The notes beneath the pieces were generated by a model, which saw only the letters and a list, made by a program, of their open reading frames with translations, was not told where the DNA came from and searched no databases. A DNA stretch of 64,000 bases from Sporolactobacillus laevolacticus DSM 442 (GTDB lineage Bacteria; Bacillota; Bacilli; Bacillales; Sporolactobacillaceae), in assembly GCF_000497245.1 (NCBI RefSeq), contig NZ_AWTC01000004.1:760-64759 (forward strand). Direction: 5' to 3'. Positions 13,664 to 25,977 of the stretch are shown here, piece after piece. The position numbers and the translations under genes are program-made. Positions within the stretch are counted from its first letter, which is position 1. The number at the start of each line of letters is the position of its first letter.

Positions 13664-14039
13664 TTTAGGAGTAGTAAAAAAGTCTGGGTATATCTTGTCG
13701 AAGGTTGTCGGCAAATCTTTGCTATGCGGGATTTTTCGGGGTTTTTCAGGAGTTTAGACCGTGTTCCAATCTGCCGTTCTTCTACTATACTTTTCTCAAG
13801 AAATAAAAAAACATCGTTTATATGACCTGCACCTTCACCTCAGAAGACATCTTCATTTATTTATTTATTCTTTCTTACTCGACGCAAGCATCCCTAATCA
13901 AGCGGAAAACCGTCATTGACGGCTCACATAATGGATCTTCCGCTAAATACGCGCGCTTCTTGTGCACAACGCGGAAGTCACCACATCATGTGGAAGTTCC
14001 GGCATGCACATGCATGCAACAAAACAAGGAGGTTTTATC

Positions 14040-22371: not shown

Positions 22372-22400
22372 TTGACACTTCTTATTATATTTGCTATAAA
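22372..22400 (+). promoter_or_regulatory. Sigma-A promoter of the aromatic leader
   Basis: TTGACA at 22372-22377, 17-base spacer, TATAAA at 22395-22400; transcription would begin near 22407, 26 bases before the leader peptide ATG. No protein gene other than the leader peptide lies between it and the aminotransferase at 22924. Confidence 0.8.
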
Positions 22401-22432
22401 TGGAGTCACAAACGCAAAAGGAGTTTTTACTC

Positions 22433-22495
22433 ATGATTGAATCGGGCAAACTCCAATTGAATACATTTTATTACTACTTTGGTTTCTTTCGTTAG
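22433..22495 (+). CDS. Phe/Tyr-rich leader peptide
   Basis: 20-codon frame with an AAAGGAG ribosome site nine bases upstream. Codons 12-19 read FYYYFGFF: seven aromatic codons out of eight, as in phe/tyr attenuator peptides. The stop codon overlaps the first arm (22494-22504) of a hairpin series that ends in a terminator. The ribosome site and ATG sit in a small hairpin (GGAGTTT 22420-22426 with AAACTCC 22448-22454). The peptide itself probably has no role beyond being translated. Confidence 0.65.
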   Translation: MIESGKLQLNTFYYYFGFFR

Positions 22496-22624
22496 TGTTT
22501 GCATTCGTTTCACTGGATGCAAACACTTCAGCAGATGTTTGCATCCATGCGGAAGCCAGAGTGGTACGGTTCAACTCGGGAAAAATAACCACATGGATAA
22601 ATGATCAATAATCCGTGTGGTTTT
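22494..22624 (+). promoter_or_regulatory. Four-segment transcription attenuator
   Basis: Segment 1 AGTGTTTGCAT (22494-22504) pairs perfectly with segment 2 ATGCAAACACT (22517-22527). Segment 2 pairs alternatively with segment 3 TGTTTGCATCC (22536-22546, partner 22515-22525). Segment 3 overlaps ATCCATG (22543-22549), which can pair with CATGGAT (22592-22598), the left arm of the terminator AACCACATGGAT/ATCCGTGTGGTT (22587-22598/22611-22622). Hence 1:2 allows the antiterminator and 2:3 allows the terminator. A ribosome at the leader stop covers segment 1 and favours termination; stalling at the Phe/Tyr codons favours read-through. Confidence 0.6.
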
Positions 22625-22647
22625 CATTTATTAGTAAGAAGCCTTAA

Positions 22648-22680
22648 ACACCCACGGTTATTGATGCCGTGGGTGTTTTT
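22648..22680 (+). terminator. Second terminator in the leader
   Basis: ACACCCACGG (22648-22657) pairs perfectly with CCGTGGGTGT (22667-22676), then TTTT. It follows the attenuator directly. Its left arm CACGG (22653-22657) can pair with CCGTG (22613-22617) in the right arm of the first terminator, so both may open together; that coupling is inference. Confidence 0.75.
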
Positions 22681-22691
22681 CTCTAAAAAAA

Positions 22692-22897
22692 GGCTATGTT
22701 AAAGCTCAATTTTGAATTTGCTACTATGTTAATTGGAGCGGAAGGTGCGAGACTCCTGCGGGAGGGTTCCTGATGATCGCGAGCCAGGCGAGACCCCGCA
22801 GCGAAGTATTGAGCGAGGAGGCTCGCGGATCGCCCGCGGCCGTACCTGTTGATGCGAGCACATGGAGCGAAAATCAACAGTAAAATTTAACAAAGCC
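22692..22897. repeat. MITE/REP-like palindromic intergenic element, copy B
   Basis: Terminal inverted repeats GGCTATGTTAAA (22692-22703) and TTTAACAAAGCC (22886-22897), one mismatch, enclose the GC-rich core GTGCGAGACTCCTGCGGG, GCGAGCCAGGCGAGACCCCG, GAGGAGGCTCGCGGATCGCC at about 22745-22840. Shares core and right end with copy A (91-288). It lies between the leader terminators and the aminotransferase gene. Confidence 0.75.
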
Positions 22898-22923: not shown

Positions 22924-24123
22924 ATGAGACATTCATTAGTTGGCAAAATGAAAAAGGAATTGGCGCTGTTGCAGCCTTCGGACATTTTGTTATTTGATCA
23001 AGCGACTTCATCGATTCCTGATATTATCAAATTAACGATTGGCGAGCCGGATTTTAATACTCCGGAGCATATCAAAGAAGCGGCAAAACGAAGCATTGAC
23101 AGCAATCATAGCCATTACGCACCACCAGCAGGTACACCTGAATTAAGAAAAGCAATCAGCAATTTTCTTAAAAAGAAATATGATTTGCATTACAATCCTG
23201 ATCACGAAATTCTGGTAACAGCCGGTGCAACGGAAGCGATTTATACCGTCTTGACATCGATTCTGAATCCTGGAGACAAGGTGTTGATGCCGACGCCGAT
23301 CTTCCCACTATACATTCCGGACACGATTCTCGCTAAAGCAGAGCCAGTGTTCATGGATACATCATCAAATGGTTTTGTGCTTTCTCCTGAACTGCTTGAA
23401 GAAACGCTTGAAAAGCATGGCGATGCAGTAAAGGCCATTATTTTTAACTTCCCTACAAATCCGACCGGCGTTACGTACCGGAGAGAAGACGTAAAGGCGC
23501 TCGCTGAGATTCTAAAAAAACATGATATCTTCATAATCAGTGATGAAATATACAGTGAACTCACGTATGGCGAACGTCACGTGTCCATGGCTGAGTACCT
23601 GCCGGACCAAACGATTGTGCTTAACGGTGCGTCAAAATCGCATGCGATGACTGGTTGGAGGATTGGGTTCATCTGTGCTCCGGCAGCAATTACGACAGAG
23701 CTTGGTAAGATTCATCAGTTCACGATCACTTCGACAACAACGATGGCACAAGATGCTGCACAGGAAGCTTTTGAGAATGGGATGAACGATGGCGCGGAGA
23801 TGCGTGTGGAATATGAAAAACGCCGTGATTTTGTTTATCAAGAAATGCGCAAGGCCGGCTTTGAATGTGTAAAACCAGAAGGTGCCTTTTATCTATTCGC
23901 TAAAATTCCCGATGGATTTATCCAAAAGAGCTTGGATTTCTGTACGGATTTGGCACATAAAGCGCGAGTTGCTGTTATTCCGGGCGGATCATTCGGCCCG
24001 GGTGGCGAAGGGTATATCCGGATTAGTTATGCAGCAAGTATGGATCAGCTCAAGGAAGCGATGCGCAGGATTGCGGGCTATGTAGCCGAGAAAGAGGAAG
24101 AAAAAGGGAGTGTGCAACGATGA
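22924..24123 (+). CDS. PLP-dependent aminotransferase, aromatic/aspartate type
   Basis: Class I/II fold-type I aminotransferase, 399 residues, close in wording to AraT/PatA enzymes of lactic acid bacteria. Features: LTIGEPDFNTPEHIKEA (about 38-54), YAPPAGTPELRKAI (about 62-75), FNFPTNPTG (about 177-185), DEIYSELTY (about 205-213), the PLP lysine in NGASKSHAMTGWRIGF (about Lys237) and IRISYAAS near 361. It would interconvert aromatic amino acids and 2-keto acids. Preceded by a leader rich in Phe/Tyr codons and overlapping the D-hydroxyacid dehydrogenase by four bases, so the pair plausibly makes or uses phenylpyruvate-type acids. Substrate is inference. Confidence 0.85.
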   Translation: MRHSLVGKMKKELALLQPSDILLFDQATSSIPDIIKLTIGEPDFNTPEHIKEAAKRSIDSNHSHYAPPAGTPELRKAISNFLKKKYDLHYNPDHEILVTAGATEAIYTVLTSILNPGDKVLMPTPIFPLYIPDTILAKAEPVFMDTSSNGFVLSPELLEETLEKHGDAVKAIIFNFPTNPTGVTYRREDVKALAEILKKHDIFIISDEIYSELTYGERHVSMAEYLPDQTIVLNGASKSHAMTGWRIGFICAPAAITTELGKIHQFTITSTTTMAQDAAQEAFENGMNDGAEMRVEYEKRRDFVYQEMRKAGFECVKPEGAFYLFAKIPDGFIQKSLDFCTDLAHKARVAVIPGGSFGPGGEGYIRISYAASMDQLKEAMRRIAGYVAEKEEEKGSVQR

Positions 24124-25127
24124 AAATCATCATGTTCAGTGTCCGAGACGACGAGGAAGCGGCGATCCGAGAATGGGAGCAAAAGAATGGTGTGCAGGTG
24201 ACTATCAATCGCCATGAATTGGATGCCGAATCGGTGAAATTGGCACAAGGTTATGATGGGATTGTCATCCAGCAACGCAATCGCATCAGTGATCCAATTA
24301 TTTACGAGACGCTCGAAGCATTCGGCTTGAAACAGCTTACCTCGAGAACAGCGGGATTCGACATGATTGATATAGATCAGGCAACGGCGCATGGTCTTGT
24401 TGTTACCAATGTACCCGCGTACTCGCCGAACTCAGTTGCTGAATTGGCGGTCACTCAAGCGATGCGGTTGATTCGCAACCTGTCATTGTTTGATGAGCGG
24501 GGCAGGCAGCAGGATTACCGCTGGAGCGGCCTAATGGCACGTGAGATCCGCTCCTTAACCGTCGGTGTGATTGGCGCGGGACGAATCGGCGGAACGGCTG
24601 CCCGTTTGTTTAAAGCCTTGGGCGCAACAGTCATTGCGAATGATGTTGTCGAGCGGGACGATTTGAGCGATGTGCTCACCTATGTATCAAAGGAAGAATT
24701 GCTGCGACAGGCGGATATTGTGACGTTGCATGTACCTTTAATGGAATCAACCACGAAGCTCATCGATACAGACGCTTTGGCATTGATGAAACAGGATGCA
24801 TTCCTGATCAATGCCTCGCGTGGTCCGGTTGTTGACACCGATGCTCTGATTACGGCATTGCAAAATAAGAAAATTGCAGGGGCGGCTGTTGATACGTTAA
24901 CTGGTGAGGAGCATTTCTTCAATCAGGATTTGCGTGGTGAGGAAATCCCAAATGAGCAGCTACAAACATTACGAGCGATGCCAAACGTCTTGATCACACC
25001 GCACATCGGTTTTTATACAAACCTTGCCGTACAAAATATGGTTGAAATCAGTTTGAATGATGTGCTGACTATTCTTAAAACAGGGAAAAGTGAACATCAG
25101 GTCAATAAGGTAGCAGTTAAAAATTGA
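24120..25127 (+). CDS. D-2-hydroxyacid dehydrogenase (D-lactate dehydrogenase type)
   Basis: NADH-dependent reduction of 2-keto acids to D-2-hydroxyacids, 335 residues. The nucleotide site is VGVIGAGRIGGTAARLFKALG (about 148-168), the catalytic Arg lies in NASRGPVVD (about 232-240), the Glu in the GAAVDTLTGEE region, and the catalytic His in TPHIGFYT (about 292-299). Fits the D-LDH/VanH-like branch. The ATGA overlap with the aminotransferase implies joint expression; together they could turn phenylalanine into D-phenyllactate or supply D-lactate. Which keto acid is preferred cannot be read here. Confidence 0.9.
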   Translation: MKIIMFSVRDDEEAAIREWEQKNGVQVTINRHELDAESVKLAQGYDGIVIQQRNRISDPIIYETLEAFGLKQLTSRTAGFDMIDIDQATAHGLVVTNVPAYSPNSVAELAVTQAMRLIRNLSLFDERGRQQDYRWSGLMAREIRSLTVGVIGAGRIGGTAARLFKALGATVIANDVVERDDLSDVLTYVSKEELLRQADIVTLHVPLMESTTKLIDTDALALMKQDAFLINASRGPVVDTDALITALQNKKIAGAAVDTLTGEEHFFNQDLRGEEIPNEQLQTLRAMPNVLITPHIGFYTNLAVQNMVEISLNDVLTILKTGKSEHQVNKVAVKN

Positions 25128-25779: not shown

Positions 25780-25883
25780 GTGCGAGACTCCTGCGGGACT
25801 GGTATTGTTGATGCGAGCCAGGGGAGACCCCGCAGACAGCGGGTTGACCGAGGAGGCTCCCGGATCGCCCGCGGAAAGGGAGC
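25780..25883. repeat. MITE/REP-like palindromic intergenic element, copy C
   Basis: Core blocks GTGCGAGACTCCTGCGGGAC, GCGAGCCAGGGGAGACCCCG, GAGGAGGCTCCCGGATCGCC as in copies A and B. The outer inverted arms seen in A and B are not recognisable here, so this copy is partial or older. It lies between the GNAT terminator and the MocR gene. Confidence 0.7.
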
Positions 25884-25977
25884 AACTGAAGTGTCATCAA
25901 AGCACAAGTTTGGTGAATTAAAGCCGCATAATAGTGATTGCCTGGTTTTTTTGATGAAAATTGGATACGAAAGGATA

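Follow-up and report, generated by a model that had tools for sequence, protein, structure and literature searches.

The leader-peptide attenuators of the proteobacterial phe, trp and his operons are classical. The enterobacterial his leader is a chain of alternating helices, and the default of the untranslated trp leader of E. coli is usually described as the reverse of read-through. The leader described here, from Sporolactobacillus laevolacticus DSM 442, shares with the proteobacterial leaders a short ORF, tandem regulatory codons, mutually exclusive helices and an intrinsic terminator in front of a biosynthetic operon. It differs from them in its odd number of arms, in a first arm placed right after the stop codon, in two serial, coupled terminators and in its Bacilli host; the comparison is one of described design.

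An earlier note on this DNA held that Bacilli mostly use other systems. They are still not devoid of leader-peptide attenuation, as His leaders of this kind have been published for Firmicutes (PMC2965389, PMC9413887). The portions of these two papers at hand describe neither aromatic leaders nor a seven-arm chain, and the His-codon leader reported below (L142) lies on the scaffold of the trpB motif. A possible Phe leader in Acholeplasma is mentioned in the available part of PMC8632094. The trpB motif (Rfam RF04312) was published as the strong riboswitch candidate SRC-39-1, with more than 900 representatives located mostly before an amino acid type ABC transporter; the available part of that paper also notes an antiterminator (PMC11109978). 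Rfam RF02863, Enterococcus sRNA 2410, is listed as a small RNA, and the main text of the Enterococcus faecalis sRNA paper (PMC3166299) contains none of the strings '2410', 'attenuat' and 'leader'. No paper on a Sporolactobacillus aromatic leader system was found in the open-licence text of PubMed Central.

The DNA analysed, hereafter the window, is a stretch of 64,000 nucleotides, and the features of the leader region and of the genes behind it are collected in Table 1. The leader ORF ends in FYYYFGFFR and a stop codon, with the Phe/Tyr run at 22466-22489. The promoter, the ribosome site, the 20-codon Phe/Tyr leader, segments 1:2 and 2:3, the ATCCATG arm and the two terminator-like hairpins of the earlier note are all present in the sequence; the leader stop codon, which the note had overlapping segment 1, abuts it instead. 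Helices 1:2 and 2:3 have 11 pairs each and both use segment 2, and the antiterminator arm ATCCATG (22543-22549) is complementary to CATGGAT (22592-22598). The four-segment attenuator of the note holds as a mutually exclusive switch and falls short in its arm count, since a pairing between arms 5 and 6 had been missed and there are seven arms.

Table 1. Features of the leader region and the regulated genes (positions in the window)
Feature	Position	Strand	Basis
Promoter: TTGACA 22372-22377, 17-base spacer, TATAAA 22395-22400	22372-22400	+	Read by eye
Ribosome-binding site AAGGAG of the leader peptide	22418-22423	+	Read in the sequence; aligned in relatives
Leader peptide ORF (MIESGKLQLNTFYYYFGFFR, then stop), ATG 22433, 20 codons, TAG 22493-22495	22433-22495	+	Sequence
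Arm 1 (TGTTTGCATTC), abutting the leader stop codon	22496-22506	+	Pairs with arm 2
Arm 2 (GGATGCAAACA)	22515-22525	+	Pairs with arm 1 or arm 3
Arm 3 (TGTTTGCATCCATGCGG)	22536-22552	+	Pairs with arm 2 or arm 4
Arm 4, 5' arm of terminator 1 (CCACATGGAT)	22589-22598	+	Pairs with arm 3 or arm 5
Arm 5, loop and 3' arm of terminator 1 (ATCAATAATCCGTGTGG)	22604-22620	+	Pairs with arm 4 or arm 6
U-rich tail of terminator 1	22621-22632	+	Sequence
Arm 6, 5' arm and loop of terminator 2	22647-22665	+	Pairs with arm 7 or arm 5
Arm 7, 3' arm of terminator 2 with its U tract	22667-22682	+	Sequence; alignment pairing
Regulated gene 1, class I/II PLP aminotransferase (NCBIfam PRK07309)	22924-24123	+	Profile cut-off passed
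Regulated gene 2, D-2-hydroxyacid dehydrogenase whose start overlaps the gene 1 stop	24120-25127	+	

A simple pattern scan reported neither the promoter nor either terminator, because the -10 box is TATAAA and not TATAAT and the hairpin loops exceed the limit of 8. Boxes resembling the promoter recur at the matching position in relatives (by eye). Folding of 22407-22690, the check proposed in the earlier note, gave -99.8 kcal/mol compared with -61.4 +/- 4.4 kcal/mol for 200 dinucleotide shuffles (z -8.8), none of which was as stable. The aminotransferase expected downstream is encoded there and passes the cut-off of PRK07309; the label 'aromatic' that the note gave it does not occur in that family name. 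The D-hydroxyacid dehydrogenase was also found where the note had it. Between terminator 2 and the aminotransferase lies a GC-rich repeat (about 22735-22890, limits by eye), with related copies at 193-239 and 25845-25891 of the window, which widens the gap between leader and gene compared with several relatives (by eye).

The window leader gave no Rfam match at curated thresholds. The window contains no T-box (RF00230) at the gathering score; elsewhere in the same genome there are 19 T-box matches, 12 of them over the cut-off, and three of these 12 precede aromatic tRNA synthetases (Pfam: class I W/Y synthetase, Tyr synthetase and Phe synthetase), the genes behind the remaining ones being named by eye only. 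An Rfam Bacillaceae-1 RNA is found at 13927-13994 of the window (50.9 bits).

We suggest that the locus is very probably a ribosome-mediated transcription attenuator that senses charged Phe- and Tyr-tRNA through seven mutually exclusive arms. Three read-through helices, 1:2, 3:4 and 5:6, compete with three termination helices, 2:3, 4:5 and 6:7. With ample Phe and Tyr, the ribosome would arrive at the stop codon and cover arm 1, and 2:3 would form; 4:5 (terminator 1) and 6:7 (terminator 2) would then form as well and transcription would stop. A ribosome waiting at a Tyr or Phe codon would leave arm 1 free to form 1:2, arm 3 would capture arm 4, and arm 5, once released, would capture arm 6. Both terminators would then fail, and the aminotransferase and dehydrogenase would be transcribed. 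Since arm 5 pairs with arm 6, one switch would control both terminators. As the number of arms is odd, the chain predicts read-through for an untranslated leader, i.e. a default that is ON.

Partial transcripts of the window leader were folded with an assumed ribosome footprint of +16. With this footprint, a ribosome held at Tyr13 to Phe16 covers no base of segment 1 and one at the stop codon covers 10 of its 11 bases, a geometry that fits the contrast between stalling and reaching the stop codon drawn in the earlier note. For a stall at Tyr13 or Phe16, helix 1:2 stood at 1.0 and 3:4 at 0.96-0.98; for a ribosome that has reached Phe19 or the stop codon, 2:3 stood at 0.99 and 3:4 at about 0, i.e. 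a stall at the last Phe folds like termination. In this model a ribosome at the control codons and one at the stop codon would thus free different arms, as expected of an attenuator. Just before arm 7 is made, 5:6 stood at 0.50 (Tyr13), 0.96 (Phe16), 0.34 (stop codon) and 0.18 (Phe19). Equilibrium favours the terminators in every ribosome state as soon as arm 5 has been made in full, and does so anew after the completion of arm 7. In the full transcript the read-through chain reaches -33.2 kcal/mol versus -46.7 and -48.7 kcal/mol, and both terminators form whatever the position of the ribosome. Because equilibrium favours termination in every state, we infer that read-through must be kinetic, with the chain forming first and holding for a time.

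The leader DNA was matched in 14 of 58 genomes, namely the genome of the window and 13 of the 14 others of the genus, and in none of the 43 genomes beyond the genus. A core model, R1, built from 19 of the 24 leaders that it finds, places the leader and its arms in 14 of 15 Sporolactobacillus genomes and also reveals a second, paralogous leader in 10 of the 15. Where the earlier note had looked to conservation in relatives, the peptide is kept in these 14 genomes and the arms carry compensatory changes. Among 299 genomes of the order, R1 has a match at E <=0.1 in 24, six of them Sporolactobacillus; the uninspected matches outside the genus are weak (at most 31.7 bits). The alignment of 24 leaders used below leaves out a leaderless remnant in genome G001 (L025/L091, 33.8 bits) as well as weaker or antisense R1 matches.

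Set side by side, the 24 leaders agree with both chains of helices. The read-through chain is paired in 90.4% of 792 cells, compared with 30.5-42.9% for slid partners, and the termination chain in 94.5% of 757 cells, compared with 33.0-44.5%. None of 500 shuffles matches the paired percentage or the covariation score of either chain. All five measures of the termination chain exceed all 500 shuffles; so do cells paired, double-change cells and covariation score for the read-through chain, and its other two measures (pairs changed on both sides and further pair types) do not. Helix 1:2 is paired in 97.1% of cells over its first ten pairs and in 66.7% at the eleventh, and the other helices in 92.9% (2:3), 85.0% (3:4), 94.6% (4:5), 91.3% (5:6) and 95.8% (6:7). 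Every one of the six has at least one pair changed on both sides: seven of 11 in 6:7, three of ten in both 3:4 and 4:5, and one each in 5:6, 2:3 and the main part of 1:2. The leaders show what is expected of an attenuator: mutually exclusive helices that carry compensatory changes and end in an intrinsic terminator, and a short ORF in which regulatory codons follow one another behind a ribosome-binding site. Native partners pair only modestly better than swapped ones for 1:2, 2:3, 3:4 and 5:6, in part because related sequences share their arms.

The leaders are of two classes. Class I (n = 14) ends in YYYFGFFR or close variants, and class II (n = 10) in RYYYFGWF plus one residue, or close variants. 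All 24 have an in-frame aromatic run (ribosome sites read by eye), and in all 24 the stop codon abuts arm 1 or lies one base away from it. The last nine codons of the class I leaders (14 leaders, 126 cells) differ from the commonest codon by 8 synonymous and 13 amino acid changes; since the latter outnumber the former, codon substitution alone is not strong evidence of translation. Six of the 13 are Phe-Tyr swaps, and the aromatic run is kept. GGAGTTT of the leader ribosome site is complementary to AAACTCC inside the leader ORF (22419-22456 in the window), a pairing core seen by eye in most class I leaders and absent in L020 and L021; it might slow translation of the leader.

Orthologues of the aminotransferase (at least 74% identity) were found in 13 of the 15 Sporolactobacillus genomes, each time with a class I leader directly upstream and, in all 13, with the dehydrogenase directly downstream. 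Genome G011 has neither leader nor orthologue. Genome G001 also lacks the orthologue, and its class I leader, without a Trp codon, heads genes of early-pathway type, one of ADH-synthase type (319 bits against a cut-off of 241) and one like 3-dehydroquinate synthase II (374.4 bits against a cut-off of 375), which to judge from these profiles are an alternative early shikimate route. G001 also has a lone copy of terminator 1 (L025:3968-4011, minus strand, G001:C7), without leader or arms 1-3, in front of a D-hydroxyacid dehydrogenase and shikimate dehydrogenase-like and 3-dehydroquinase-like genes (names by eye); it is perhaps a decayed attenuator.

The class II leader in the genome of the window heads transketolase, DAHP synthase and aroB, and in G009 a shikimate dehydrogenase sits between the genes of the class II operon; gene contexts were read for the class II leaders other than L084 and L088. 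In L028:875-1198 (G005:C20) the transketolase behind the class II leader seems truncated, to about 107 residues, with a DAHP-synthase-like gene next (by eye). A Trp codon occurs in all ten class II leaders and in none of the 14 of class I. The Tyr/Phe/Trp codons of class II would fit a common pathway that also feeds Trp, and the Phe/Tyr codons of class I fit an aminotransferase expected, though its substrate is deduced, to act on Phe and Tyr; G001 is the exception to this rule. The regulatory codons would thereby match the downstream pathway, and gene context and codon content strengthen the earlier note's proposal that aromatic supply is the control signal. In the genome of the window, the scan rule used flagged no leader in the tyrA-like region or upstream of trpE. 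The regions upstream of aroA and of the trpE-like gene were read by hand. A possible 25-codon ORF, MNLWWLIRDH..., with two Trp codons and no clear ribosome site or terminator, lies at L115:2893-2970 (G000:C5) upstream of a 734-residue trpE-like gene.

With relaxed thresholds, the class II leader matched RF04312 on the right strand with 41.5 bits and the class I leader of G001 with 37.5 bits, both below the cut-off of 59, and the class II leader matched RF02863 on the right strand with 37.5 bits, below the cut-off of 61. These leaders thus score outside both families, and up to E = 1 the window leader gave no plus-strand match to RF04312 and no match to RF02863.

In 398 genomes of the class, RF04312 has a match at E <=0.01 in 29 and over the cut-off in 10. 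Among the 37 matches listed we read 30 loci, one of them the class II leader of the window's own genome. All 11 matches over the Rfam cut-off have a short Trp-codon ORF ending 12-24 bases before the motif. With a loose ribosome-site rule and a line at 46 bits, drawn after looking, a leader ORF lies just upstream in 16 of 16 matches of at least 46 bits, the additional five having Trp (three), Phe/Tyr (one) and His codons (one). Below that line, one locus of 13 (L150) has a matching leader and 12 do not, three of the 12 having an unspecific short ORF. With a strict ribosome-site rule, 14 of the 16 stronger loci have a leader ORF and 13 have one with a Trp codon or four aromatics, compared with 0 to 1.7% of shuffles per locus; the rule missed L139 and L145 because of the ribosome site, and L142 because of its His codons. 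L142 (genome G342) has four His codons in a row on a trpB-motif scaffold, before a HisZ-like gene.

In the RF04312 loci arm 1 begins right behind the stop codon, and its partner is the left side of P1. This helix, 1:2, has a mean of -14.8 kcal/mol compared with -5.4 for shuffles, and in 15 of 17 loci at most three of 300 shuffles are as stable; the exceptions are L136 and L142, where an arm 1 that begins at the stop codon has no advantage over its shuffles. Helix 3:4 averages -13.4 kcal/mol compared with -7.8 for shuffles, and only 5 of 17 loci stand out from their 300 shuffles to that degree. P1 corresponds to 2:3 of the Sporolactobacillus chain, the right shoulder of P1 to arm 3, where the available part of PMC11109978 also places the antiterminator, and the terminator to 4:5. 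Unlike the window leader, these loci have five arms and one terminator.

RF02863 was found in 94 of 98 genomes of one family, 88 of them over the cut-off; we take this family as Enterococcaceae from the Rfam name. All of the best 30 loci have a leader ..QLN..YFSYFR or variants, with the stop at a constant place, and a transporter-protein-like gene behind it (both by eye; nine of the 30 genes scored). Six of the 30 could not be parsed with the pattern used, and the arm counts omit them. In the 24 parsed loci 5:6 has -17 to -23 kcal/mol compared with about -6 for shuffles, with none of 100 shuffles as stable in any of them, and the first hairpin has no U tract. These loci, which precede a TrpX-like ABC transporter protein, share with the window leader an aromatic peptide, arms 1-7 and a single switch ending at the terminator; they differ in this first hairpin.

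A third form was found in Lactobacillaceae. All five aminotransferase orthologues fetched (Pediococcus, Paucilactobacillus and Secundilactobacillus) have a leader ending QLN(N/S)(C/S)RYYF(W/R)FF.V. Arms 1 and 2 are absent, the role of arm 3 falls to the bases around the stop codon (GTGTGATTTGTGG), and the pairing is 3:4, 4:5, 5:6 and 6:7. Two arms are thus removed and the logic is unchanged, because a ribosome at the stop codon would now cover arm 3. Helix 5:6 has -15 to -22 kcal/mol. In all five, the first hairpin lacks a U tract and is unlikely to be a terminator; with no U tract here or in the parsed RF02863 loci, no connection between leader and terminator can be seen other than 5:6. Two of the five leaders were picked up by an automatic scan that applied a rule for the ribosome site, the other three being read by eye; the scan flagged none in the four distant relatives L042-L045 (L046 and L047 were outside the scan). 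A model of this form, R2, gave 11 weak, uninspected matches in 398 genomes of the class (at most 26.5 bits), so the form rests on five loci from a search that finds close relatives only.

The substrate-binding proteins behind RF04312 and RF02863 leaders were scored with the NCBIfam TrpX cut-off of 390. Downstream of Trp-codon leaders, 12 of 12 proteins tested lie above it (436-625 bits); there are 14 such leaders, and for L134 and L138 the sequence examined contains no downstream gene. Downstream of Phe/Tyr-codon leaders, 11 of 11 lie below it (269-384 bits), nine of these coming from one RNA family, so that the 11 are not independent. The sole His-codon leader precedes a HisZ-like gene (218 bits, cut-off 272). 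Since their leader codons match the downstream gene, RF04312 and RF02863 both look like attenuators of this design. Comparison, here and in relatives, thus bears out the leader ORF, the place of its stop codon, the six helices and the match of codons to genes, and one design of five or seven arms would fit RF04312, RF02863 and the Lactobacillaceae leader.

The seven-arm chain hinges on 5:6. In a simpler attenuator, arms 1-5 would act, terminator 1 would be regulated and terminator 2 would be a plain back-up, with 5:6 a loop-loop contact or a product of chance. Terminator 1 does have its own U-rich tail in the window, a five-arm version is seen in the RF04312 loci, and loop bases give much of the 5:6 pairing in the window, where the duplex has -18.8 kcal/mol. 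The mean over the 24 leaders, -17.7 kcal/mol, is as strong as that of 4:5 (-16.5), compared with means of -6 to -12 for shuffled arms and -7 to -9 for the unused pairs 4:6, 5:7 and 4:7; 5:6 is weak in L084 and L024, where up to 28 of 300 shuffles are as stable. Against a mere contact of loops, the pairing of arm 5 with arm 6 extends beyond the loops of the two terminators and into their stems in almost all of the 24 leaders. Four of the 24 are unpaired at one position of this stem part (columns 155:213), and L016 alone has CTGTG/CACAG in place of CCGTG/CACGG, a paired change. The first hairpins without U tract in the parsed RF02863 and the Lactobacillaceae loci also speak for coupling, and the operon would stay off behind a strong terminator 2 that lacked regulation. 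We therefore regard the simpler arrangement as unlikely and favour the seven-arm switch.

Two other readings keep the RNA and change what is sensed. As published for the trpB motif, in a strong candidate whose model matches the class II leader below threshold, an aptamer would bind an aromatic amino acid and the ORF would be incidental; in the available part of their paper its proponents also allowed for a classic attenuator (PMC11109978). The arms pair as plain helices of complementary bases, a leader ORF precedes all 11 RF04312 matches over the cut-off, and the codons (Trp, Phe/Tyr or His) change with the downstream gene on one scaffold. A match of codons and genes is predicted by a leader that the ribosome reads and not by a riboswitch, which we consider highly improbable here. 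TnaC is the model for comparison for nascent-peptide arrest. By analogy the peptide end (..FFR, ..YFR or ..WRR, then stop) would, at high levels of the free amino acid, keep the ribosome on the stop codon, with longer cover of arm 1 and hence termination. A QLN motif and often a final Arg are kept beyond the control codons in many class I, Lactobacillaceae and RF02863 leaders (by eye), and slow release would help because arm 1 lies just past the stop codon. The aromatic positions nevertheless vary in residue (two genomes have class I YYYCFRLFR), the choice of amino acid goes with the downstream gene, the conserved bases near the stop may serve the RNA, and arrest could add to stalling at the control codons rather than replace it. 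Such arrest in place of stalling seems to us quite improbable, and we retain the attenuator that reads charged tRNA.

The following points are, to our knowledge, new: a Sporolactobacillus regulon of aromatic leader peptides that exists alongside T-boxes for aromatic tRNA synthetases, one switch acting on two terminators, odd chains that predict a default of ON, and this re-reading of RF04312 and RF02863. We consider it likely that leader-peptide attenuators of a single modular type, always with five or seven arms and never an even number, are widespread in Lactobacillales and Sporolactobacillus for aromatic and some histidine genes, with the trpB motif and Enterococcus sRNA 2410 as members. 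Arms would be gained and lost in pairs that keep the logic, a hairpin could be a mere relay, one ribosome could switch two terminators, and untranslated leaders would be ON.

If this is true, two Rfam families would no longer count as unexplained RNAs. The published riboswitch candidate, with its more than 900 representatives (PMC11109978, as far as the available part goes), would turn into an attenuator that the ribosome reads and whose signal can be predicted, and the 'sRNA' that has matches in 94 of 98 genomes of one family would become the leader of a transporter operon. The codons would allow prediction of the cargo of uncharacterised transporters (Trp versus Phe/Tyr), and chains of different length with a shared logic would offer a clean model for the distance that a switching signal travels along a growing RNA.
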